Source: a virus. Taken from it: a DNA stretch of 32,055 bases. Made by a program: the position numbers and the translations under genes. The DNA is taken from positions 1 through 32,055 of IMG/VR virus record IMGVR_UViG_3300017759_000031; one strand, given 5' to 3'. A model generated the notes under the pieces. That model searched no databases. It saw only the letters and a program-made list of their open reading frames with translations, and was not told the origin of the DNA. Positions within the stretch are counted from its first letter, which is position 1. Every line of letters starts with the position of its first letter. Positions 11,795-31,805 of this stretch are shown here, piece after piece.

Positions 11795-13150
11795 ATGGTT
11801 ACAGAACAAAACTTAATAGATTCAAAAGATGAAATTGAAGAGTTAGAAGAACTTCAAGAAGAGAAAAAACCCGTTGTCCAAAGACTTAGTGATGTTGGAA
11901 TAGAATTAAAATCTATAAGTGATTATGTTATGTCGGATTATGAAGCAGTAACCCTACTATCAAAAAATCTTAACATCAATGCTACTGAAGCAAGAAAACA
12001 ATTAACTTCTTTTCCTAGACAATATTCTTTTGATGGAGAAAATATCCCAGACTTAGTTAAAAAAATGCGAAGGGCAAGAAGAAAACTAAAGGGTGAAGAA
12101 AGAGTAAGAATGGCTAAAGCAATTGATACTATTATAGATGGGTATTCTGACCACATTTCAAAATGTATTGAATCAATATACTGGTTAAACCCGTATAAGG
12201 AACCACTCCTAAAAATGAAATTCAATGAAAAAGATTTACTAAAACTTCACAAAATTGATGATGTTAAAACTAGAAGAGTTATTGTAGATTCGTTGTGCAA
12301 GTTTTGGGAAAATGATTTAAAGAAAAAAGACATGGTTTATGGCAAAGACTATTCATCTTTAGAAAAGACATGTCGTTTAGCAAAGAAAGACTTTAGGGCG
12401 GAGATTAAGAAAATTTCAGACCAATCAATAATCAAAACTAAAAAAGAAAAAGTTCTTAGTTTTATTGAAACTGAAATAAGAAAAAGTCCCGGAATTGGTG
12501 CTAAACAACTTCATGACAAATTACCATCTCAATTACACAAAGGAACAACTTCAAACATGATTTCTAAAATGGTTAAAAAATTAGATGTTGCTGTTGTTAA
12601 TGGTGGCTATTATAAAATGCCAAGCGAAATAAAAAAGAATATTTGGGCTTATACTGCTGCATTTATTGATTCCGATGGCTACATTACTATGGATAGAAAC
12701 CATAACCCAAGAGTGGGTTTAATTGCTACCGGAGAAAGAGGTCGTGCTTTCATGGAAGAAATGCATAAATCAATAGGTTTTGGTAAATTACATCTAAATC
12801 AAAAATCACCACAAGATACACGCCCAGTTCAAAGACTTAATTTTTATTCTCAAGCCCATGTTAGTGATTTATTAACTAAATGTCTGCCTCATTTTAGATT
12901 AAAGAAAGGTAATGCAGAATTACTTCTTGAACTGATTAGAATGAAAAAGTCTTATAAAAAAGAAGAGTGGTACAAACCAAGATGTGAAGAGATTTTCAAA
13001 TTAATGAAATGGGAAAATCATAAAGACCATGTAGGTTTTGATTTCTTAAAAGAAGGTATTTATTTAGATGATATTCAAAAATATAAAGATAACTGTAAAA
13101 TTTCTTTAATGGACTCTATGGAACAAGTTGGTAGTAATCTTTTGGTTTGA
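11795..13150 (+). CDS. Winged-helix protein with C-terminal LAGLIDADG-type domain
   Basis: This 451-residue protein follows terL after TGAGGTGC. Residues 30-215 are helical and charged and unrecognised. Residues about 218-278 look like a winged helix (VLSFIETEIRKSPGIGAKQL ... a wing near VNGGYYKM). Residues 284-380 resemble one LAGLIDADG homing-endonuclease unit: A-Y-T-A-A-F-I-D-S-D-G-Y-I (285-297) carries the catalytic acidic residue, followed by strands and S-I-G-F-G-K-L. A single motif implies a homodimer if it cleaves DNA. No intein splice residues are seen, and terL is intact. It could be a free-standing homing endonuclease, or a viral DNA-binding protein that captured the fold. The placement between terL and portal is typical of mobile endonuclease insertions. 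Confidence 0.7.
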   Translation: MVTEQNLIDSKDEIEELEELQEEKKPVVQRLSDVGIELKSISDYVMSDYEAVTLLSKNLNINATEARKQLTSFPRQYSFDGENIPDLVKKMRRARRKLKGEERVRMAKAIDTIIDGYSDHISKCIESIYWLNPYKEPLLKMKFNEKDLLKLHKIDDVKTRRVIVDSLCKFWENDLKKKDMVYGKDYSSLEKTCRLAKKDFRAEIKKISDQSIIKTKKEKVLSFIETEIRKSPGIGAKQLHDKLPSQLHKGTTSNMISKMVKKLDVAVVNGGYYKMPSEIKKNIWAYTAAFIDSDGYITMDRNHNPRVGLIATGERGRAFMEEMHKSIGFGKLHLNQKSPQDTRPVQRLNFYSQAHVSDLLTKCLPHFRLKKGNAELLLELIRMKKSYKKEEWYKPRCEEIFKLMKWENHKDHVGFDFLKEGIYLDDIQKYKDNCKISLMDSMEQVGSNLLV

Positions 13151-18061: not shown

Positions 18062-18426
18062 CATGGGATTACTATGAAGAAGGAAAAGAGTTTATATTAA
18101 AGGCCGAGAAGAAACAAGTACCTAAAGACCTGCTTGATTCTTTAGGCACTAAAGAAAAAAAGAGACTTAAAAAGGTTTTACAGTCAGCACAACCTACTGA
18201 ATTTTTTGGGAAAGACTTTACTCAAATGGGTGAATTAATAGATGTTCTTAAAGATTTACAGTTAGTGAAAGATGATAGTAAATTAAACAAAAAAATGAAA
18301 TCAATGGATGAAAGGAACATTGATATAGTGGCTACTGCTACTGAACTTCGTAAGGACTATGAGTTGCTTTACCGACAGTTAAGAGATTTAGTTTATCCTA
18401 AAAAGAAAAAAGGTGATGATGAATGA
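18058..18426 (+). CDS. Small M-T-W-D-Y-Y helical protein
   Basis: This 122-residue protein starts in an ATGA overlap with the strong site AAGGAGG upstream. It begins M-T-W-D-Y-Y-E-E-G-K-E-F-I-L-K, like the protein at 14963, with I-L-K reappearing at 13-15. The rest is helical, Lys-rich and without recognisable domain; the C-terminal third contains ELRKDYELLYRQLRDLV, a probable coiled coil. It overlaps the mini-scaffold-like gene by four bases. Function unknown, possibly assembly-related from its neighbours. Confidence 0.7.
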   Translation: MTWDYYEEGKEFILKAEKKQVPKDLLDSLGTKEKKRLKKVLQSAQPTEFFGKDFTQMGELIDVLKDLQLVKDDSKLNKKMKSMDERNIDIVATATELRKDYELLYRQLRDLVYPKKKKGDDE

Positions 18427-18662
18427 GTGAAGCAAATGAAGAATTATTAGCCATACTTAAGGCTTTGACAGAAAAAATAGAAAATTTAGAAAAAACAGTT
18501 TATCATCAAGATAACATTTTGATGAAATCTGGTTTTGTTGTCACTGAAAGCCCAAGCCCAAAAATGAATAATGGTGGAATTGGTACATCATCCGTTGGTG
18601 ATGTTGGTAGTATGGAATGGTCAGATATACACAAAATGGTTGAAAAAGTAGGTGGTCAATAA
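18423..18662 (+). CDS. Mini-scaffold-like protein
   Basis: This 79-residue protein starts in an ATGA overlap after GGTGATGATG. It has an N-terminal coiled coil (about 5-30, EELLAILKALTEKIENLEKT), a Gly/Ser/Asn/Pro-rich linker (40-62), and the C-terminal peptide M-E-W-S-D-I-H-K-M-V. The same ten residues end the prohead protease-scaffold fusion. The layout coil-linker-tail, and even the M-S-E start, parallel the scaffold portion of that gene. In many phages the scaffold C-terminus contacts the capsid protein, so this protein may bind the same partner: a second scaffold, a length regulator or an adaptor. That role is inference; the shared tail is directly visible. Confidence 0.75.
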   Translation: MSEANEELLAILKALTEKIENLEKTVYHQDNILMKSGFVVTESPSPKMNNGGIGTSSVGDVGSMEWSDIHKMVEKVGGQ

Positions 18663-21857: not shown

Positions 21858-21885
21858 TCAAAGGGAATACGAAGGGTTGAGGAAC

Positions 21886-23115
21886 ATGAGCATAAGCGTT
21901 ATGGCTACAAGGAATGATGATTTTAGCATTCTCAAAAGCAACGACGACTTAATGATTGGTGGATATGCAAGTATTGAAATCGTAGATAAACAAAACGATT
22001 TAATTACATTAAACGCATTAAAAGATTCAGTAACAAAGTTTATGGGAGACTCAAAATTTAGAAATGTAATGACTAATCATTCAAATGTGCAAGTTGGAGA
22101 AGTTGTTGATTCATATAGAGATAAAAACGGAAAATTATGGAAATCCGAAGTTGATGATGTTGGGTTCTTTGTTGTAATTAAATTAAGAGATGACATCGAA
22201 AAAGCAAAAGAAGTGGGGAGAAATATTCGCAAAGGTTCGTTAAGAAGTTTTAGCATTGGTGGACAGGCATTACAAAAAGTAAAGAAAAGCCACAAAGAAT
22301 TAGGGGAATATAACGAAATTAGTAAGTTAGAACTCCACGAAGTTACAATATGTGAAAAAGGAATTAACCCCGAAGCGAAATTCGATATTTTAAAACAAGA
22401 TATAGGAAGTGAAAAAATGAGTGAAAAACTAGAAAAAGCACTGAGCGAGTTGGACACCTTGTTAGAAGAAGTTAATACTCTTCGCAAGGAAGAAGAGGAT
22501 GAAATGATGGAACGGGCATCTATGGCAGAAACCGCAGAAATGGCTGATGAAGAAGAAGACATGGATATGGACAAAGGAAACTATGAAATGGCTGATGAAG
22601 AAGAAGACATGGAAATGGGAGAATACCAAGATGATGAAACAAAAGCATACCTTCGTACCCTTGATGGCGCAGGAAACCAAATTGGCGAACCTGCCGACCG
22701 AATTGTAATTAACAACGGAAAGCCGACTTCTTCGGATATGCCAGTTGTTAAAGCATTTGAAAACAATGAATTTGATTCTCTTGATTTGATTAATGCAAAC
22801 ATCGAAAAGGCTTATGCTGCTTTCCGTGAAGAACAACTCGAAGCACTTGCCTACGATAATCTACGAAAGTCTTTTGAGTCTCGATTTGCCAGTGAACGAG
22901 CAAACCGTGAAAACATTCTCGCAAAGTCTCAATATGACGCAGCAAGTGAGATTTCTTCTCTTAAGGAAGAATTTACACAATTGCGAAAGTCTTTGACAGC
23001 CGAGAAAGATTCAATCATTAAGGCTCAAGAAGAATCTAAAGTAACCCTCCCATCGTTGAACGATATTGCAGAAATGGAATGGTCAGACATTCATAAGATG
23101 GTGAACAACATTTGA
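21886..23115 (+). CDS. Prohead protease-scaffold fusion
   Basis: ATG 21886 gives 409 residues; a TTG at 21877 is an alternative. Residues 15-170 fit the HK97-type prohead serine protease: H65 in T-N-H-S-N-V-Q-V-G-E, S123 in L-R-S-F-S-I-G-G, and E152 in L-H-E-V-T-I-C-E, followed by G-I-N-P-E-A. The protease matures the capsid by cutting scaffold and capsid protein. Residues 178-409 are scaffold-like: coiled coil (180-205), an acidic tandem repeat (216-247), a Gly/Pro linker, long helices (300-385), and the C-terminal tail M-E-W-S-D-I-H-K-M-V-N-N-I. Fusion of protease and scaffold is known in tailed phages. It is followed by the capsid gene. Codon use becomes visibly less AT-rich in the scaffold half. 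Confidence 0.87.
   Translation: MSISVMATRNDDFSILKSNDDLMIGGYASIEIVDKQNDLITLNALKDSVTKFMGDSKFRNVMTNHSNVQVGEVVDSYRDKNGKLWKSEVDDVGFFVVIKLRDDIEKAKEVGRNIRKGSLRSFSIGGQALQKVKKSHKELGEYNEISKLELHEVTICEKGINPEAKFDILKQDIGSEKMSEKLEKALSELDTLLEEVNTLRKEEEDEMMERASMAETAEMADEEEDMDMDKGNYEMADEEEDMEMGEYQDDETKAYLRTLDGAGNQIGEPADRIVINNGKPTSSDMPVVKAFENNEFDSLDLINANIEKAYAAFREEQLEALAYDNLRKSFESRFASERANRENILAKSQYDAASEISSLKEEFTQLRKSLTAEKDSIIKAQEESKVTLPSLNDIAEMEWSDIHKMVNNI
22417..23115 (+). CDS. Probable nested scaffold protein from internal start
   Basis: An in-frame ATG at 22417 lies exactly at the junction of the protease and scaffold parts. It is preceded by TAGGAAGTGAAAAA, a plausible ribosome site in the middle of a gene. 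The product would be 232 residues starting M-S-E-K-L-E-K-A-L-S-E-L, a coiled coil resembling the start of the 79-residue protein at 18423 (M-S-E-A-N-E-E-L-L). The arrangement matches the nested lambda gene pair C/Nu3, where scaffold is made separately from the protease fusion. Expression from this site is inference. Confidence 0.5.
   Translation: MSEKLEKALSELDTLLEEVNTLRKEEEDEMMERASMAETAEMADEEEDMDMDKGNYEMADEEEDMEMGEYQDDETKAYLRTLDGAGNQIGEPADRIVINNGKPTSSDMPVVKAFENNEFDSLDLINANIEKAYAAFREEQLEALAYDNLRKSFESRFASERANRENILAKSQYDAASEISSLKEEFTQLRKSLTAEKDSIIKAQEESKVTLPSLNDIAEMEWSDIHKMVNNI
22537..22613 (+). repeat. Two 29-bp direct repeats, 48-bp period, acidic linker
   Basis: GAAATGGCTGATGAAGAAGA continues identically for 29 bases at 22537-22565 and again at 22585-22613. 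The repeats encode E-M-A-D-E-E-E-D-M-[DE], giving a 16-residue period in the acidic linker of the scaffold. A recent tandem duplication is the simplest explanation. Confidence 0.85.
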
Positions 23116-23127
23116 AGGTGATTTATT

Positions 23128-24465
23128 ATGACAGGATATATTAATACAATAGCAGACTTAGAAGCGCAAACATACGGAATTAACAACTTACCTGCCGGTA
23201 ATGCTTTATTGAAGCAAGCCGGTATGGTCGGCGGTATTCACACAGGACACGACGGTTCTCCGTCTTTGTCCGGTAGTGGAGTTAGTGATGTTTCGGCATT
23301 ATACAACATCGTTTATGGACAAAAGGTTTGGTCTATGCTAAACCGAGAAGTTAACGCATTATCAATGATTGCAAAGCGACCTTATTCTTCAAGTGGTTGG
23401 AGAGTATTGAAAAGCCGACCTGCTGGCGGTAGTGGGAACTTATTCACTGTTGACGCAAGCGGAACAGAAAACCTTGCAGAATTAGGTTCGGATAGTCCAA
23501 GAGCAGATATGATTGGTGGTGTTCCTGAGAACGCTGCTCTTTCAACTGCTCAAGATGGATTAGGGCCTATTGCTCCAACTTATGCTCAATTAAACATGAG
23601 TCCAAAAGTTGTTGCACATCAATTCGATTTCAGTGAACTTGCTATGGAAATGGCACAAATTGATGACGGTATTGGAGATATTCGAGCGCAAATGCGTGAA
23701 GATATGGGTAAGCACCACGCAGAAGTACAAAACAAGATGCTAGTTATGCCATTAGAGCATTATGGTGAAAGTTCCGCTATGCCTAACATTGGGAACAACT
23801 ATTCATCATTGTTGAAGGTTATTACATCAAGAGCAGAATTACTCCTAATTGATGGTGGAGTTCTTGCTACTGATACAACCTCCGCTTCTAACGCATTAGG
23901 TAAGATTTACGGTAGTGAGCGATTTAGTGCCGCTTCTTTCCTTGATGCAGAAGTTGATTTCGGAACAGACTATACCGCAGGTAATGTTCGTTCTTTAACT
24001 TTAACTCTTTTGAACAATATGATTCGTAACTTGCGACTTGCAGGTGGCTCTCCAAAGGTTATCCTTACTGGATATGACACTATTCAAACATTGGCTGACC
24101 TATTGCAAAGCCAAGAGCGATTTATGGATAGAAAAGAAATTGTACCAACAGTTAATGGTGTTCGTGGGACAAAAGGACAAGAAGTAGGTTTCCGTGTGGC
24201 AACTTATTACGATATTCCTCTAATTCCGGTTAAAGACATGACCGCTACTGGTGCTGCTTCATCCAAACTAAGTGATATGCTTTTCCTTGATACTGACCAT
24301 TTGTGGCTATCCGTTATGAAACCAACTCAATACTTTGAAGATGGTATCGCAAACGGTAATCCATTTGGTGTAGGAACTTTGGGCAACCGAGCCCTTTACC
24401 GAACAATTGGTGAAGTCGGATGTTCATTCTTCAAAGGACAAGGAAAGATAACAAACATACAATGA
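23128..24465 (+). CDS. Major capsid protein, HK97 fold
   Basis: This 445-residue protein is the expected shell protein, placed directly after protease-scaffold with AAGGTGATTT upstream. The N-terminal 50 residues are Gly/Ser-rich. The W-S-M-L-N-R-E-V-N-A-L-S-M-I-A-K-R region (68-84) fits the N-arm/E-loop part of HK97-like capsid proteins, and helical and strand segments to L-S-V-M-K-P-T-Q-Y-F-E-D (about 393-404) and the C-terminal G-A/P-domain core follow. Composition is less AT-rich, with Ala, Gly and Ser abundant and frequent CGA/GCA/CTT codons, as expected of a highly expressed gene. I see no sequence signature that names the capsid family precisely, so the call rests on position, length and composition. 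Confidence 0.85.
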   Translation: MTGYINTIADLEAQTYGINNLPAGNALLKQAGMVGGIHTGHDGSPSLSGSGVSDVSALYNIVYGQKVWSMLNREVNALSMIAKRPYSSSGWRVLKSRPAGGSGNLFTVDASGTENLAELGSDSPRADMIGGVPENAALSTAQDGLGPIAPTYAQLNMSPKVVAHQFDFSELAMEMAQIDDGIGDIRAQMREDMGKHHAEVQNKMLVMPLEHYGESSAMPNIGNNYSSLLKVITSRAELLLIDGGVLATDTTSASNALGKIYGSERFSAASFLDAEVDFGTDYTAGNVRSLTLTLLNNMIRNLRLAGGSPKVILTGYDTIQTLADLLQSQERFMDRKEIVPTVNGVRGTKGQEVGFRVATYYDIPLIPVKDMTATGAASSKLSDMLFLDTDHLWLSVMKPTQYFEDGIANGNPFGVGTLGNRALYRTIGEVGCSFFKGQGKITNIQ

Positions 24466-24750: not shown

Positions 24751-25104
24751 TTGGCACTAGCATTTACAGTAACTTTATTGGGCGACCATAAAGGGATTAC
24801 ACGGCCTAAAGTAGTTGGCGACGAATATGTAGTTGATGCTTTAGTTGATGTAAGTTCAATAGTAGCGACAGGTTCAGTAATACCTGCTTCTTCTTTTGGA
24901 TTATCTTCAATTACGGCGGCAGTTATTACAGGTCACGATAACGCTAATGGGCTACAAGCACAAATAGAATGTTCGGCAACAGGGGCTTATGAATCTAATA
25001 GTTCAATAGCACTGATGTTCACAAGTTTAGACGGAACAAACGCTACTGCGTCAAATGATGCCGATGGCGGTTCAGTCCGAATGCGTGTTTATGGCAACCT
25101 TTGA
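24751..25104 (+). CDS. Small beta-rich protein, possible head or tail component
   Basis: This 117-residue protein starts at TTG 24751 after TGAGGTGTTTTAA. It is uncharged, rich in Ala, Val, Ser, Gly and Thr, with strand-like segments (LAFTVTLLGDHKGITRPKVV, SSITAAVITGHDNANG, SVRMRVYGNL). The opening F-x-V-T-L-x-G-D-H-K is typical of small beta-sandwich virion proteins. Alternating hydrophobic pattern and the lack of Lys set it apart from most of the window. Capsid decoration or stabilisation is the likeliest role but unproven. Confidence 0.65.
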   Translation: MALAFTVTLLGDHKGITRPKVVGDEYVVDALVDVSSIVATGSVIPASSFGLSSITAAVITGHDNANGLQAQIECSATGAYESNSSIALMFTSLDGTNATASNDADGGSVRMRVYGNL

Positions 25105-25813: not shown

Positions 25814-26227
25814 ATGGCCGCATTAAATAATGATACTAGATTAGTTATGACTATTTTATTTGTTGGTACTGTTAGTGGAGCAAATGTGTATTTTTACTCC
25901 GCTTACGGTTTAACTTTCCCATATGGAGCATTAGCACATTCAGTTCTTTTTGGATTGATTACAGTTGGTGGAATAATGGTAATGAAAGCATTATTTGATT
26001 TATCTTTAAATGATAGAATAGAAGTAAGACTATTAGATAGACAAATTGAATCACACTTTCAACGAGTAGCAAGAGAACAACAGATTAGACAAAAACTTAG
26101 AGATAGCATGAAACAATATGGTGTTCAAAGGAGAGAATCATGGAATACTGTTTATCCCGAACAACCAACTGCTTCTTTTGAAGAAAGCCAAATACCTAAT
26201 GAATTTTTAGCAACCATCCAACAGTAG
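25814..26227 (+). CDS. Two-pass membrane protein with cytoplasmic helical tail
   Basis: This 137-residue protein starts at ATG 25814 after TGAGGTGATTTA. Two hydrophobic segments (about 10-31, VMTILFVGTVSGANVYFYSA, and 40-62, AHSVLFGLITVGGIMVMKAL) are joined by a short loop. Residues 65-137 are a charged amphipathic helix with Arg/Gln-rich segments (RIEVRLLDRQIESHFQRVAR, EQQIRQKLRDSMKQ). By the positive-inside rule the tail is cytoplasmic. It is the first gene of a module with another membrane protein and a small GTPase. It could be a membrane anchor for virus assembly or exit, a holin-like protein or a receptor-type protein; nothing decides. Confidence 0.75.
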   Translation: MAALNNDTRLVMTILFVGTVSGANVYFYSAYGLTFPYGALAHSVLFGLITVGGIMVMKALFDLSLNDRIEVRLLDRQIESHFQRVAREQQIRQKLRDSMKQYGVQRRESWNTVYPEQPTASFEESQIPNEFLATIQQ

Positions 26228-26236
26228 GTGGTTTAA

Positions 26237-26458
26237 TTGGTTCTTGGCGATATTATGGGTTTTTCCGACTCGGATTACGCATATAATCAATCAAGGGCTC
26301 ATTCCGCAGATATTTTCTTTATGAAAATGAGAGCGTGGTTTTGGGGTAGTTGTGCTACATTATCGGCATTACTCATAGGAAATATTATGGGTGTCTTTGA
26401 TGTCAATATTATGGGTTCTTTAATTTCTTTAGTTAAATCAATATTCGGAGGGCATTAA
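26237..26458 (+). CDS. Small membrane protein
   Basis: This 73-residue protein starts at TTG 26237 after TAGGTGGTTTAA. The N-terminal 30 residues are polar with several Ser, Asp and Tyr. A hydrophobic segment W-F-W-G-S-C-A-T-L-S-A-L-L-I-G-N-I-M-G (about 34-52) is followed by a second amphipathic hydrophobic helix (M-G-S-L-I-S-L-V-K-S-I-F-G). Its stop directly abuts the GTPase start, and its 3' end supplies the ribosome site GGAGGGC. Function unknown; likely co-translated with, and possibly a partner of, the GTPase. Confidence 0.7.
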   Translation: MVLGDIMGFSDSDYAYNQSRAHSADIFFMKMRAWFWGSCATLSALLIGNIMGVFDVNIMGSLISLVKSIFGGH

Positions 26459-27127
26459 ATGTCAGTAATGGCAGGGTTCGCTATATTAATTACAGAAGCA
26501 GTAGTTTCATTTTATAAAAGAGTTCATGCTATAAATTTTGGTGTTTATGGTTCAACTATGGTGGGTAAAACAACTTTAAGTCATCAAATGAGAACTAGGG
26601 GAGAAGTACCACAAATAAACAAGAGAACAGTTGGTTTAGAAAGAGCAAGCAGAAAGGTAATTAAATTTGATGGAGATTCTCACACTTTAAAAAGTTCGGA
26701 TATTGGTGGCGAGGCAATATATTGGAAAGAATGGATTAAAGACATGAAAAGCAGAAAAGTAAAATATATTATTTTTATGATAGACCATAGACATTTAGAT
26801 TCTCCTGCAAACCTAGACCATCAATTAGCGTGGAAATTTTTAGTAGATACAATTATGTCAAATACATGGCCTAACGGAAAAAGAAAAAAAGAAGCAGATT
26901 ATCCCATGGCAGTAAGTATATGGGCAAACAAATATGATATATGGGGAGAAAAATATCCATTGAGAGAAGGACAACAAATTGATAAACATGATATTTATGA
27001 ACCATTTAAATATGGAATGCGCCAATTAAACGACAAAGGAATACCCACTTTTAAATATATTGTTTCTGCAAAATCTGACCCTGAAATGGTTTATAAAGGA
27101 ATTACTACTCTAATAAGAGATTACTGA
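26459..27127 (+). CDS. Arf/Sar-like small GTPase
   Basis: This 222-residue protein has all five G motifs: G1 G31-S-T-M-V-G-K-T-T39, G2 T57 in R-T-V-G, G3 D81-I-G-G84, G4 N157-K-Y-D160, G5 S203-A-K. The Arf/Sar family is favoured because G1 spacing matches G-x4-G-K-T-T, because G3 is D-x-G-G with a Trp (W92) eleven residues later as in Arf, and because an N-terminal amphipathic or hydrophobic helix (3-19) precedes the domain, as in Arf/Sar membrane anchoring. The residue corresponding to the catalytic Gln of Arf is Glu (E85), which may slow hydrolysis. Known relatives switch membrane-bound complexes on and off. Two membrane genes upstream suggest a membrane role here. Rab/Rag-like or MglA-like assignment is possible. 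Confidence 0.82.
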   Translation: MSVMAGFAILITEAVVSFYKRVHAINFGVYGSTMVGKTTLSHQMRTRGEVPQINKRTVGLERASRKVIKFDGDSHTLKSSDIGGEAIYWKEWIKDMKSRKVKYIIFMIDHRHLDSPANLDHQLAWKFLVDTIMSNTWPNGKRKKEADYPMAVSIWANKYDIWGEKYPLREGQQIDKHDIYEPFKYGMRQLNDKGIPTFKYIVSAKSDPEMVYKGITTLIRDY

Positions 27128-27136
27128 GGAATAACT

Positions 27137-27766
27137 ATGTATCAACAACCGAATTTAATAAGTAGCCCGCAAACACAGAATTTATTTTTGCCTAAATTAC
27201 AACAGTTTAGAGCATCAGGTAGTATAGAAGAATATACCTTTGATGCACTAAAACCGAAAAAACAATTAAAAGAAATAAAGAAAGTATTACTTCCCGAAAA
27301 GAAAAAATTTATTTTTAAATATGGATATAAATTTAATTTAAAAGATAGGTGTATTGTTTGTGGAATGCATCATATTTGGGAATCAAGTGATTATTTGCGA
27401 CCTCCTATTCCTTTAGATAATGTTACTAAAGGAAGACCTATGCGTGGAACATATTGTCAAAAACATGCAGGTATTCATAAACAAATGGAAATGCTACAAC
27501 AACAAATTTTAGCAGATGAACACGGTTTAGATTTCAAAGCATTTATACCTAGACCAAAAGTACCTCAAATGTTAAAAAGTGGCCCATTGAAAACATTGAC
27601 TAGGGAAGATGTTTTATCCTTGTCCTCAACCGGATGGATTATAACGCCACCCGTAGTCAAGGATAATGAGGGCGAGATGGCCGAAGCGATTAGATTAATA
27701 GCGGAAATAGAAATTAATACTAAGAGACTACATTCAATGATGACAAACAGTAAAGGAGAGGAATAA
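27137..27766 (+). CDS. Hypothetical zinc-site protein
   Basis: This 209-residue protein starts at ATG 27137, two codons past the GTPase stop, with TGAGGAATAA upstream. A probable metal site spans C72-I-V-C75-G-M-H78-H79 and C107-Q-K-H110 with H114 nearby. The N-terminal 60 residues are basic and probably extended; residues 110-125 are helical; the C-terminal 40 residues form an acidic helix (EGEMAEAIRLIAEIEINTKRL). No family recognised. Its location suggests a role with the GTPase and membrane proteins, or as a virion component. Confidence 0.7.
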   Translation: MYQQPNLISSPQTQNLFLPKLQQFRASGSIEEYTFDALKPKKQLKEIKKVLLPEKKKFIFKYGYKFNLKDRCIVCGMHHIWESSDYLRPPIPLDNVTKGRPMRGTYCQKHAGIHKQMEMLQQQILADEHGLDFKAFIPRPKVPQMLKSGPLKTLTREDVLSLSSTGWIITPPVVKDNEGEMAEAIRLIAEIEINTKRLHSMMTNSKGEE

Positions 27767-27768
27767 AC

Positions 27769-28428
27769 ATGGTTTTTGGAACAAGTAATAAAGCAGTAAT
27801 GGGTGCGGTACAAGCACAAAATGACCAACAATTTAAAAATGTAAATAACTTATTATCTTTACAAGATAATCATGTTGAAGAATTTTTTCAATATCATGGA
27901 GAGCAATTTTTATCTACCCTTGAAAAATTAATGGAAGATGTAGTTGAAAGAGTAGTCAGTCAAATGTTAGCAAAATTATCTTTTACTAATGTTGGCTCAA
28001 AAATGGTTATTGATGCAGATGCTATGAGAGATTATGAAAGAATTACTCAAGAGAATATTGATTTAGACATCCAAAGGATATTACAATCGGCAATTAACTC
28101 AGAAGTTGTGAACCAAAGGAAACTTGCTAAGTCGCAATATCTTGAATCTCAAGGATTTAGCGGTGGCGGTGGCATGAATCCGGTAGCACCGACAGCAGGT
28201 ATGGCTATGGCCGGAGTTATGGGACAACAGCAACAATACAACCAAGTTCAAGGTGCTATGAATAATGGAACCGGCTACCCTATTCCTCCTTCGGGAACAG
28301 ACGGATATGGTCGCCCATATTGGATTGACCCAAATAACGGGCAAATGTCATATGAACCTCCTTCAAGTGGATTACATCTTGGTTCTGCAATTCAAAAAGG
28401 TGCTGCTTGGGCTAAATGGTTAATGTGA
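27769..28428 (+). CDS. Hypothetical protein, helical with Gly/Met/Gln-rich C-terminal half
   Basis: This 219-residue protein starts at ATG 27769 just after the previous stop with GGAGAGGAAT upstream. Residues 15-125 are helical (NLLSLQDNHVEEFFQYHGEQ, STLEKLMEDVVERVVSQMLA), likely a coiled-coil oligomer. Residues 130-185 are low complexity, rich in Gly, Met, Gln, Asn and Pro. The end is Y-G-R-P-Y-W-I-D-P-N-N-G-Q, Pro/Ser and an Ala/Lys/Trp helix (AAWAKWLM). Such tails occur in fibre-like or membrane-interacting virion proteins. Function unknown. Confidence 0.7.
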   Translation: MVFGTSNKAVMGAVQAQNDQQFKNVNNLLSLQDNHVEEFFQYHGEQFLSTLEKLMEDVVERVVSQMLAKLSFTNVGSKMVIDADAMRDYERITQENIDLDIQRILQSAINSEVVNQRKLAKSQYLESQGFSGGGGMNPVAPTAGMAMAGVMGQQQQYNQVQGAMNNGTGYPIPPSGTDGYGRPYWIDPNNGQMSYEPPSSGLHLGSAIQKGAAWAKWLM

Positions 28429-28438
28429 GTGGATTAAC

Positions 28439-30685
28439 TTGAAATTAACATATGGCCGAATAGACCGTGAAATAGAGGTCAATGAAAGTTTTATGTTAAA
28501 AGAAATGCTTACATATGTTTTTAAAGAATATTTAAATGACAAAAATACAAGGAGAATAAATACGCAACTTTCATTAAGAAGCATGAAAAATAATAATCCT
28601 AATGATTTTGACGATAAAAAAACCGAGTATAAAAATATTTATGATTCTACTTTAAAAAAACTAAAGGGAAGTGATGAACAATCTTTAAGAGTTTTAAGTA
28701 ATAAAGTTAAATTAAATACAAAAGGTAAAGAAATTATAGACTATCTATATGAAATTAAGTCATCACCTTCGTTCAAAAATAATGCAGTTAGTTTTTCTGA
28801 TTTGAATGATAATAATTTTACTAACCTTACTTTACAAACACCCACAAGTTCTGGGGATTTAAGAGCCAAAAAAAGAAAAGGTTTTGAACAAGCGGCCTAT
28901 AATAAATATATGCAAGGTATTGAAATAGAAAAAGAAGGCCAAAAAACTGAAACAATAGAAAGTAAAAATAAAGAAGGTAAAAAAATAAAAGTCAAAAGGA
29001 CTACCGATAAAAAAATTATTAAATTTAATGAATTTGGTTTAAATCCATTAAATCCAAATGAAAGAGATAAAGTTAATAAAATAAATTTTCTATATAACCT
29101 TGGTGTTAGACCAATAACTCTTACTAGAATTGTTATATCGACTAAAGGTAAAAGTGTCGCTTCAAAAGAAAGAAAAGTTGGTGGAAAAGAAGGAGAAATA
29201 AAAGATATTGGTAGAAAAACTACTGATATAACCGGAGGTGAAAAAGAATCAACTCCGAGTTTATTGAATACTAGAAGTAATAAGACTAAATATATCTTTG
29301 AAAGTATGTTTGACTTAGAACCAGTCGGAAAAAATCTACCTAATCGCAATAATGCTTCACAAGTTAGACTGTATAAATTTCTTGGAGATATTGCTCGACA
29401 ATTTAAAAAACATCTTAAAAATGTTAAAGAACTATCTAAAAAAGCAAAAGAAGATGTTTATGAAATGGTTCTTTCTGAAGAAGATAAAAAATTTAATAAA
29501 AAACATTTTCCTGTAACTGAATATAATGATGAAGGTGAAATAAGTAATAACTATAAAAAGGTTGGAAACAAAACAATTGAGAGAAAATTAGGCGAGCGTA
29601 AATTAGTAGTTGAAAAGGACAGTTTTAAAATTTTATCTTTTGATGAGATAAATGAACTAAAGTCTATTTCTACAAGTTATGCTGGAAAAGGTGGTAAAAG
29701 TGTGGCTTCAGAATTTAAAGTACAAACTTTAGAAGACCTAATAAATAGCGTAGAACTCAAAAAAGATACAGATAAAGTTGATTTTAATAAATTTAAAAGG
29801 GCTATTAAAGTTTTGAGATTGCTACTTAACTTGTCCTCTACGAAACAAAGAAAAAAAGGGGCTCCTATCACTCTAGAAGGAGATTCCGCTAAAAAGTACA
29901 AGCAATACATTAAAGATTTTAATATAGAAATACAAAAAATGCAAAGAATCTTAACTTCTAATATAAAAGAATCAAACGCTGCAATATTATCACTAAAAGA
30001 AAAAAAGAAAAATTATGTTGATGAAAAATTAGAAAAACTTAAAACAAATAGAAAGAAGATTTTGACTACTCGAACTATGCCCGAAGAATTTAAAGATAAA
30101 TATTATTTAGACCCAGAACAATCCAGTTCTAAAAAATACAGGCGAAAAAAATGGACTGAAAAAGATTTCTTTAATCTTTTAGAATCTGGTTTTTTTGGCC
30201 CAAAGGCTAAAGAAGGAACTAAGCCCGAAGATATGAGCGCAAAAGAAAGAAGAAGGTACGATTTGGAAGAGGCTTCTAAAACAACCCAAGTTATAAATGT
30301 AAGTGATAAAGAATATGAAAACTTTACAGATGCTAAAAACGCTAGAAAAGCATTTAATGACCCTAAAGGTTGGACAAAATCAATATTTGCTGAACCCTTT
30401 AGGGATATGTCTAACTTATATAATTTAGAAATAAGAGTTTCAAAAATTAAAACAGGTAAAGAAAGCCCTAAATATAAATTTGAAGTATTTAATTTTGGCA
30501 CTACGCACGAAATAACTCAATCATCTGTTGACCCAAGAGCAAAAGGCAAAGAAGATAAAGCCAAATCTAGGTTTGCAGGTACAGTAAAAAGAGATAAGGA
30601 TTTAATTACAGATGTCAATGTGTTTATAAATTCAGTTAGAACAAACATTGATAAATTGGAAAAATCATTACTAAGAGGTGTTTAA
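28439..30685 (+). CDS. Giant Lys/Glu-rich hypothetical protein D
   Basis: This 748-residue protein starts at TTG 28439 after GAGTGGATTAAC, a degraded form of the usual site. It is hydrophilic and very Lys-rich, with several Lys/Gly/Ser-rich linkers (for example K-G-K-S-V-A-S-K-E-R-K at about 236-246, a motif G-K-S-V-A-S that recurs near 420) and long helical regions (about 470-545). No signal peptide, membrane segment or catalytic motif. Composition matches giant proteins A-C, but I see no clear sequence relation. It lies directly before the head-tail connector. An internal virion protein is possible. Confidence 0.75.
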   Translation: MKLTYGRIDREIEVNESFMLKEMLTYVFKEYLNDKNTRRINTQLSLRSMKNNNPNDFDDKKTEYKNIYDSTLKKLKGSDEQSLRVLSNKVKLNTKGKEIIDYLYEIKSSPSFKNNAVSFSDLNDNNFTNLTLQTPTSSGDLRAKKRKGFEQAAYNKYMQGIEIEKEGQKTETIESKNKEGKKIKVKRTTDKKIIKFNEFGLNPLNPNERDKVNKINFLYNLGVRPITLTRIVISTKGKSVASKERKVGGKEGEIKDIGRKTTDITGGEKESTPSLLNTRSNKTKYIFESMFDLEPVGKNLPNRNNASQVRLYKFLGDIARQFKKHLKNVKELSKKAKEDVYEMVLSEEDKKFNKKHFPVTEYNDEGEISNNYKKVGNKTIERKLGERKLVVEKDSFKILSFDEINELKSISTSYAGKGGKSVASEFKVQTLEDLINSVELKKDTDKVDFNKFKRAIKVLRLLLNLSSTKQRKKGAPITLEGDSAKKYKQYIKDFNIEIQKMQRILTSNIKESNAAILSLKEKKKNYVDEKLEKLKTNRKKILTTRTMPEEFKDKYYLDPEQSSSKKYRRKKWTEKDFFNLLESGFFGPKAKEGTKPEDMSAKERRRYDLEEASKTTQVINVSDKEYENFTDAKNARKAFNDPKGWTKSIFAEPFRDMSNLYNLEIRVSKIKTGKESPKYKFEVFNFGTTHEITQSSVDPRAKGKEDKAKSRFAGTVKRDKDLITDVNVFINSVRTNIDKLEKSLLRGV

Positions 30686-30686
30686 A

Positions 30687-31805
30687 TTGGCAATAGCATC
30701 ATCCCCAAGCGACTATACGGCAATAAATGTTGACTATTCAACAGGTAGCGGATATTACACTGATAAAGGGGCAGTAGCAGATATGCTACAAATACCCGCA
30801 TTTTCAAGTTCTACTTATCCAACTCAAGCACAAGTAGGCGCAATAATAAAAAATATAGAGGGTATTATTGACGATAAGGTAAAGCGTTCTTATAGGCCAA
30901 TTATTTACAGAAATGAATTTCATAACTTTGAATTTATTCGACACCCTATGCAATCGTATTATGGTGGCTATGTTGGCTTTGTTCAATTAGATACTTTAAA
31001 ATTAAAAAAGGTTATTTCATTACAAGTTTGGCAAGGAAACAGTTATCAAGAACTTGCTTCTGCTCAAGCCAGTTTAACTCTTGATACATCGGGATATGCA
31101 AGCCTAAGAAGCATTACATTACAATTACCTAACAGTGGAGATTCTTGGGTATTGTATCATCATGCCGAAGGTTCATTAGCCGCACACAATACTTTTCATA
31201 ATGGTTTTGGTTCAAAAACAACTGCTCAAGAAATTTGTCATTTAATTAACGAAGAATACCCATCAAAGACAGCACAATTTACAGGTGCTACAAGAGACAA
31301 AGTATTGACTTCTTCACCTAATGGCCTAAACATAAGTGATTTCTTCTATGCAAGCACAGACCCCGATAATGGTAATAAAGTGAACATTTCTAGCCTTTTA
31401 GCAGGTGAAGATGGCTCATTTTGTACTATTACTCTTGCAGATAAGGCGGGTCAAACATCAAGCACACAGTCGGTTGCGTTCACTGATATGCAGGATATGA
31501 AGAGACTTGGTTCTTTTTGGAGTATAGGCGATGAAGGCCGCATTTTCTTCTTAAGAGACTATCCTTATCATACACAAAATTCAATCATTTGTACTTATAT
31601 TGCGGGTAGTAGTCGCGTACCTTCGGCAATACACAAAGCCGCAACAATGTTAGTTGCAGCAGAATTGCTTAGACATGACGACCAAACAATTTTAATCGCT
31701 GAAACTGGCAGTAATATTTCAACGAAGGAAAAGTATGATATACTCAAGAAGGAAGCAGATGATATACTCAAGGGCAAGTCCGACTTGGTGTTTTTATTAG
31801 ATTGA
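30687..31805 (+). CDS. Head-tail connector (gp6-like) protein, expanded
   Basis: I chose TTG 30687 over GTG 30678 because the GTG lies inside GAGGTG, the ribosome site. The 372-residue protein has the helical start of gp6-type connectors: A-Q-V-G-A-I-I-K-N-I-E-G-I-I-D-D-K-V-K-R-S-Y-R (residues about 45-67), and a closing helical part I-H-K-A-A-T-M-L-V-A-A-E-L-L-R-H-D-D (about 310-327). Connectors of this type normally have 100-200 residues. The beta-rich middle (about 80-300, Ser/Thr/Gly-rich) looks like an insertion. The family links the portal ring to the tail. Position between capsid genes and the next tagged protein agrees. Confidence 0.72.
   Translation: MAIASSPSDYTAINVDYSTGSGYYTDKGAVADMLQIPAFSSSTYPTQAQVGAIIKNIEGIIDDKVKRSYRPIIYRNEFHNFEFIRHPMQSYYGGYVGFVQLDTLKLKKVISLQVWQGNSYQELASAQASLTLDTSGYASLRSITLQLPNSGDSWVLYHHAEGSLAAHNTFHNGFGSKTTAQEICHLINEEYPSKTAQFTGATRDKVLTSSPNGLNISDFFYASTDPDNGNKVNISSLLAGEDGSFCTITLADKAGQTSSTQSVAFTDMQDMKRLGSFWSIGDEGRIFFLRDYPYHTQNSIICTYIAGSSRVPSAIHKAATMLVAAELLRHDDQTILIAETGSNISTKEKYDILKKEADDILKGKSDLVFLLD

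Follow-up and report, generated by a model that had tools for sequence, protein, structure and literature searches.

A small GTPase of the Ras superfamily is encoded in a block of five genes, which is one part of a conserved viral head cassette. The block consists of five adjacent open reading frames on the plus strand (25814-28428) of the virus record IMGVR_UViG_3300017759_000031 (G000), whose 32,055 bases are referred to here as the window. Next to the GTPase it encodes two predicted membrane proteins (TM1 and TM2), a zinc-site protein and a coiled-coil protein. We rate the GTPase as a member of a known superfamily, and its setting in a viral head cassette as new.

The window genes run in one direction and include those for a terminase, an ATP-dependent DNA ligase, an S78 prohead protease and an SU10-type major capsid protein (MCP), as well as a putative portal-like protein, named by position and by eye. 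After the terminase gene lies that of a 451-aa protein (11795-13150), the C-terminal half of which resembles, by eye, a LAGLIDADG-type endonuclease. The relatives of the window are IMG/VR contigs, many of them 90-97 kb long. PolB was found in 16 of the 18 relatives examined, in 15 as at least two separate pieces, and the chaperonin Cpn60 in 10/10. The Magrovirales traits used for comparison were a 90-110 kb genome, a split PolB and a chaperonin, the window itself being a 32-kb fragment. One contig of 184,733 bases, IMGVR_UViG_3300021958_000021, carries two different GTPase loci (L044 and L118) and four PolB pieces, and is probably two virus genomes joined in assembly. The window MCP resembles that of the Druskaviridae (25% identity), a family to which ICTV assigns a more distant kinship with the magroviruses (PMC10768690). 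Furthermore, the ligase and prohead protease genes are found together, as they are in a group A magrovirus stretch presented in an excerpt of PMC7318539. The window is tentatively taken as a fragment of a magrovirus-like tailed virus, and its host is presumably a member of the Poseidoniales.

The five-gene block within the head cassette

TM1 and TM2 are predicted to be membrane proteins by hydropathy, with two peaks in TM1 (about residues 10-28 and 43-61) and one in TM2. In the alignment, TM1 also has a charged tail and a conserved C-terminal FLA..Q. The four ligands of the zinc-site protein (C72, C75, C107 and H110) are invariant in 40/40, and no Pfam family was found for the window protein. 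Its matches to Csm6-HEPN (6/40) and Gp6 (8/40) were judged to be due to chance. By mean pairwise identity the coiled-coil protein ranks second in conservation among the five; its C-terminal half is Gly/Gln-rich and both its ends are invariant. A WW domain was considered for it and rejected, the match being weak and restricted to a minority of members (8/41 at E<=0.5, best 0.031). The parts list of the first-pass annotation is thereby borne out. In the last protein, which it had called Gly/Met/Gln-rich, the Gly/Gln richness of the C-terminal half stands, and the coiled-coil label was given by eye. The same annotation had described the junctions as coupled. The gaps inside the block are indeed short (9, 0, 9 and 2 nt), but this is not distinctive, because of the other 34 window junctions 15 overlap and 16 are spaced by 0-15 nt.

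Table 1. Positions of the block, its flanking genes, insertion sites and terminal tags in the window
Feature	Position	Strand	Basis or remark
79-aa protein ending in the C-terminal tag common to the prohead protease	18423..18662	+
S78 prohead protease	21877..23115	+	C-terminal tag EWSDIHKMV
Major capsid protein, left flank marker	23128..24465	+	Pfam SU10_MCP 2.2e-6; Druskaviridae MCP
TM1, 137-aa membrane protein (predicted)	25814..26227	+	Hydropathy, alignment
TM2, 73-aa membrane protein (predicted), one hydrophobic stretch, TTG start	26237..26458	+	Hydropathy
TM2/GTPase junction, where tagged genes are inserted in relatives	26447..26470	+	27/151 loci
Arf-like small GTPase, N-terminal hydrophobic helix (model residues 2-22)	26459..27127	+	Motifs, Pfam, model, fold searches
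GTPase/zinc-protein junction, where tagged genes are inserted in relatives	27125..27139	+	47/145 loci
Zinc-site protein, CxxC...CxxH	27137..27766	+	Alignment
Coiled-coil protein, Gly/Gln-rich linker, strongly conserved C-terminus	27769..28428	+	Alignment
Head-tail connector-like protein (putative name), right flank marker	30678..31805	+	HCTV-1 gp117 orthologue
N-terminal tags	1036, 2333, 8809, 9278, 9650, 10048; 31816 (ORF cut by window end)

The co-occurrence of the five genes is conserved, and neither scattering nor independent loss, both of which were looked for, was seen. The fair test is the set of loci fetched by the MCP (the best 80 of 518 MCP relatives), because the second set, fetched by the GTPase, had been chosen for that gene. 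All five genes were present in 46/46 MCP-fetched loci whose sequence runs on for more than 4.5 kb past the MCP, and order and strand were kept in the 42/42 that span from MCP to connector. Of the 59 well-covered loci fetched by the GTPase, 56 had all five genes intact and in order; the other three were counted as gene-model failures, because every gene was detected, in order. Both sets together gave 112/112 spanning loci, with 89 distinct MCP/GTPase pairs, and the five genes were in order in all 142 loci that hold both end genes. The GTPase is on average more conserved than the capsid protein, with mean pairwise identities over 41 loci of 0.80 for the GTPase, 0.77 for the coiled-coil protein and 0.74 for the MCP. 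One contig filed as a Maricaulis MAG (NZMJ01000024.1, L086) carries the protease, the MCP and all five module genes, and for this reason we regard it as a virus contig in a bacterial bin.

The flanks of the block can be followed into the Druskaviridae. Both the MCP (hhalign 99.5) and the connector (probability 95.2, E 2.6e-8 against HCTV-1 gp117) have orthologues there, and the slot between them likewise holds a TM protein. In HCTV-1 and HVTV-1, however, this is one single-TM protein, placed after three small proteins, and the GTPase was not found. A search in four outgroup records (HCTV-1, HVTV-1 and two viruses assigned to methanogen lineages), run without a positive control, gave 0/4 GTPase matches at E<=10. 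Orthology of TM1 to HCTV-1 gp116 was considered and is not supported, as the two are not alignable (hhalign 0.2%).

The proposal that the five genes form one functional unit stands in part. It is supported by their co-occurrence, and the Arf-type model described below strengthens the link of the GTPase to the membrane. It is weakened by the place of the block as one part of a conserved head cassette, and pairwise-distance correlations (mirror-tree) gave no excess for co-evolution inside the block: they ranged from 0.52 to 0.77 within the five and from 0.46 to 0.83 with ligase, protease and connector. The highest value for the GTPase was with TM1 (0.76), its correlation with the protease (0.62) equalled that with TM2, and that with the zinc protein was lower (0.58). 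Insertions also speak against a sealed unit at both flanks of the GTPase, with extra genes before it in 27 of 151 loci and after it in 47 of 145. The TM1-TM2 junction had inserts in 0/158 loci and the zinc/coiled-coil junction in 2/136, where the one distinct insert is a frame-broken zinc gene. The divergence of the MCP family (window 23128-24465) is decoupled from that of TM1, TM2, the GTPase and the coiled-coil protein (r 0.07-0.25; GTPase 0.19), which suggests MCP exchange between lineages.

The GTPase and related systems

By its motifs, profile matches and predicted fold, the viral GTPase is a small GTPase of the Ras superfamily (TRAFAC). The motifs G3 (DxGGE), G4 (NKxD) and G5 (SAK) occur in 150/150 complete copies (102 distinct) and G1 (GxTMVGKTT) in 149, the remaining copy reading GxTKVGKTT. 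The window protein matches Pfam Roc/Ras weakly (E 0.003). Among 34 family members, 33 match MMR_HSR1 at E<=0.1 (best 1.2e-5) and three match Pfam Arf. A six-frame search with MMR_HSR1 passed E<=0.01 in 2/10 genomes, both of them over the cut-off.

Structure prediction points to an Arf-type fold. A first model, from 34 sequences, had a pLDDT of 54 and was not relied on; KefC ranked first in one search. A wider alignment, with 44 more diverse sequences, gave a second model with pLDDT 78.4 and pTM 0.79, in which the P-loop stretch 35-38 is below pLDDT 50. The 50 Foldseek matches listed for the GTPase model are all Rab, Ras, Rho, Galpha or Arf (best E 2.0e-9), with TM-scores of 0.45-0.55 by query length. 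VIA-align puts Arf/Arl proteins at each of ranks 1-12 (Z 16.0 to 15.5, rmsd about 2.6, about 160 residues), with Arl1 at rank 1 (Z 16.0, rmsd 2.5, 162 residues). Asgard Arf follows with Z 15.2, and Rab and Galpha with about 14.5. The likeness to Arf/Arl, including Asgard ArfR, lies in the predicted fold (Z about 15-16), the DxGG switch motif and a helix before the G domain, whereas identity in the structural alignment is about 16-20% and the secondary structure of the model has an extra stretch near residues 133-150. At the position of the catalytic Gln of Arf (DxGGQ), which is also Gln in Ras, the viral protein has Glu in 150/150 copies. Its N-terminal helix, spanning residues 2-22, is hydrophobic but its hydrophobic moment is low (0.19-0.34), so it may simply anchor in the membrane as a TM segment instead of being amphipathic like that of Arf. 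Membrane anchoring by this helix is a prediction.

Outside the group, no match to the GTPase was found among 50,697 phage records at E<=1, among 72,556 plasmids at E<=5 or in PHROGs, and a pattern-based search of genome_contigs (one genome for each of 84,980 species) matched only the Maricaulis-binned virus contig. Against the PDB, phmmer with the window protein found nothing, and the family profile retrieved only KRas/HRas and one glycosyltransferase, at E>=0.56. The 50 listed matches among predicted viral proteins resembling the fold are all from giant viruses of eukaryotes. Their Ras/Rab-like GTPases share with ours a virus-encoded Ras-superfamily fold, but these viruses infect eukaryotes and are not known to have such a fixed head-gene block. 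A full-text search, with Philosof 2017, Prabhu 2025 and Zhou 2023 outside its scope, returned no paper combining magrovirus and GTPase.

The nearest working analogue of the viral block, judging from excerpts of PMC10927574, is ArvA/ArvB/ArvC (OapA/B/C) of Haloferax volcanii. There, ArvA, an Arf-like GTPase that carries the annotation PF01926 and an amphipathic helix at its N-terminus, is described as required for vesicles to form. The same operon also encodes ArvB and the zinc-ribbon protein ArvC, the latter a suggested GAP (PMC10927574, same excerpts). Both systems, on that account, combine a small GTPase bearing an N-terminal membrane helix with a zinc protein close downstream. The viral block differs in its position in a head cassette and in its two extra membrane proteins, ArvA having been compared by description only. 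Neither OapB (PF09846) nor the zinc-ribbon OapC (PF09845) was found in 10 genomes (0/10 each), and the controls matched, for OapB in H. volcanii. Downstream of the viral GTPase there is instead a CxxC/CxxH protein without a match to OapC. Judged by the parts tested, the viral block is not ArvABC.

Tagged genes inserted beside the GTPase

The genes inserted next to the GTPase share a peptide at the start of their products. Distinct inserts encode a protein starting M-x(0-2)-W-x-x-[ILV]-[ILV]-K in 18/18 cases before the GTPase and in 32/34 after it. Of the two untagged, L133 is truly so and L011 is a frame-broken GTPase copy; with the latter set aside for that reason, 50/51 inserts are tagged. 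Across 2,914 gene readings from partly overlapping loci (663,707 residues), the motif W..[ILVM][ILVH]K is mainly terminal: there are 113 N-terminal occurrences and 186 within the final 25 residues, against 14 internal ones. In a second pass, 7 of 15 internal cases listed looked N-terminal behind a too-early start. Only two families have the C-terminal form, with 104 cases on the prohead protease and 82 on a protein of about 80 aa. N-tagged proteins, by contrast, fall into 81 families by BLAST with ten residues left off. All 49 N-tags counted in three near-complete genomes are encoded on the late strand, with 0 on the opposite one. In the window, the terminal tag reads W-x-x-[IVL]-[LIH]-K and links late proteins that are otherwise unrelated.

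Because the prohead protease must enter the prohead, we read the MWxxILK-type tag as a likely head-targeting or cargo-loading peptide, and the tagged proteins as likely cargo. The role would be akin to that of the N-terminal capsid-targeting sequence of T4 internal proteins. Some tagged proteins (L041 10675-11121, L166 13938-14465, A7 members) have GNAT acetyltransferase and PAP2-type matches, in one member per family, and others look HExxH-like by eye, which suggests effector-like cargo. In genome G014, eight tagged paralogues stand in tandem (L206 11086-15890, minus strand), each starting with xxWxDILK followed by KEIEDIDIDI. The tag is an observation separate from the module, and the two are linked by the insertion sites.

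Possible roles of the block

Our leading reading, which we hold tentatively and at slightly less than an even chance, is that the block may be a virus-owned Arf-type membrane switch, acting late and serving head assembly. We propose a late membrane switch because of the analogy with ArvABC and the gene position. It is consistent with the retained G motifs and with a GTPase that always has TM1/TM2 upstream and the zinc and coiled-coil proteins downstream, in the head cassette. Also in its favour are the high conservation of the GTPase, the TM protein in the corresponding slot of two Druskaviridae and a survey of three near-complete genomes. In these, the late-strand hydrophobic proteins conserved throughout are TM1, TM2 and the GTPase N-terminus, and besides them only a tape-measure-like protein (putative name), a beta-rich small protein of the 24751-25104 family and a large protein whose weak peak appears in one genome; some other hydrophobic calls in this survey were chaperonin ends or spurious ORFs. 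Against it, the ArvB and zinc-ribbon families were not found, the hydrophobic moment of the N-terminal helix is low, and the five genes are not singled out by distance correlation. In this reading the N-terminal helix, together with TM1/TM2, would hold the GTPase against the host membrane on its cytoplasmic side. Its GTP cycle would be regulated by the zinc protein, as proposed for ArvC, and the coiled-coil protein would link the GTPase to head proteins. The switch could thus collect growing heads at the membrane and later free them, late in infection. A membrane stage of head assembly has precedent, because T4 heads start on the membrane.

Head assembly is preferred over exit because of the gene position alone. 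As an exit module, which we consider somewhat unlikely, the GTPase with TM1/TM2 would remodel or breach the cytoplasmic membrane, either in an ArvA-like manner (budding) or in a holin-like one. Excerpts of PMC10927574 present ArvA as driving archaeal vesicle budding, and lytic haloarchaeal tailed viruses are, in an excerpt of PMC4284463, without known holin or lysin genes. We also read the two TM segments and charged tail of TM1 as a holin-like layout. However, the genes are embedded in the head cassette, with decoration-like proteins on one side and the connector on the other, rather than in a recognisable lysis cassette, and naked tailed virions need no envelope. Moreover, membrane work could also fall to a 158-aa TM protein encoded on the other strand and likewise conserved in the three near-complete genomes examined.

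TM1/TM2, and perhaps the GTPase, could also be part of the particle, to be inserted in the next host membrane at entry or to form a membrane patch. The position among structural genes, the TM protein in the same slot of two Druskaviridae and the tagged putative cargo genes beside the GTPase would fit. Nonetheless, we find this unlikely: none of the five block proteins has the terminal tag in the window, and hydrophobic segments for entry are already available from another protein, which we take to be tape-measure-like. In addition, haloarchaeal tailed viruses are described in an excerpt of PMC4284463 as typically lacking a lipid membrane. Least probable of all is that there is no unit, only five separate head genes held in order by the cassette. 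In its favour, correlations are no higher inside the block than outside, junction spacing is ordinary and synteny extends to ligase and protease. Against it, inserts almost never part TM1 from TM2 or the zinc gene from the coiled-coil gene, while both GTPase flanks vary, and the combination of membrane proteins with a GTPase has a biochemical logic.

Going further than the membrane switch at head assembly, a tailed archaeal virus might run its own Arf-type membrane-shaping machine both for head assembly and for release of naked virions, in a locus that takes swappable head-tagged genes. We regard this wider proposal as doubtful. If true, it would be a viral counterpart of archaeal vesiculation, with GTP-driven remodelling of the host cytoplasmic membrane. 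The question addressed is how archaeal tailed viruses handle the membrane of their host, and a highly conserved GTPase in viruses of very common marine archaea offers a concrete, testable set of proteins. Should the GTPase indeed shape membranes, the range of Arf-type switching would grow to include a prokaryotic virus and the assembly of virions.
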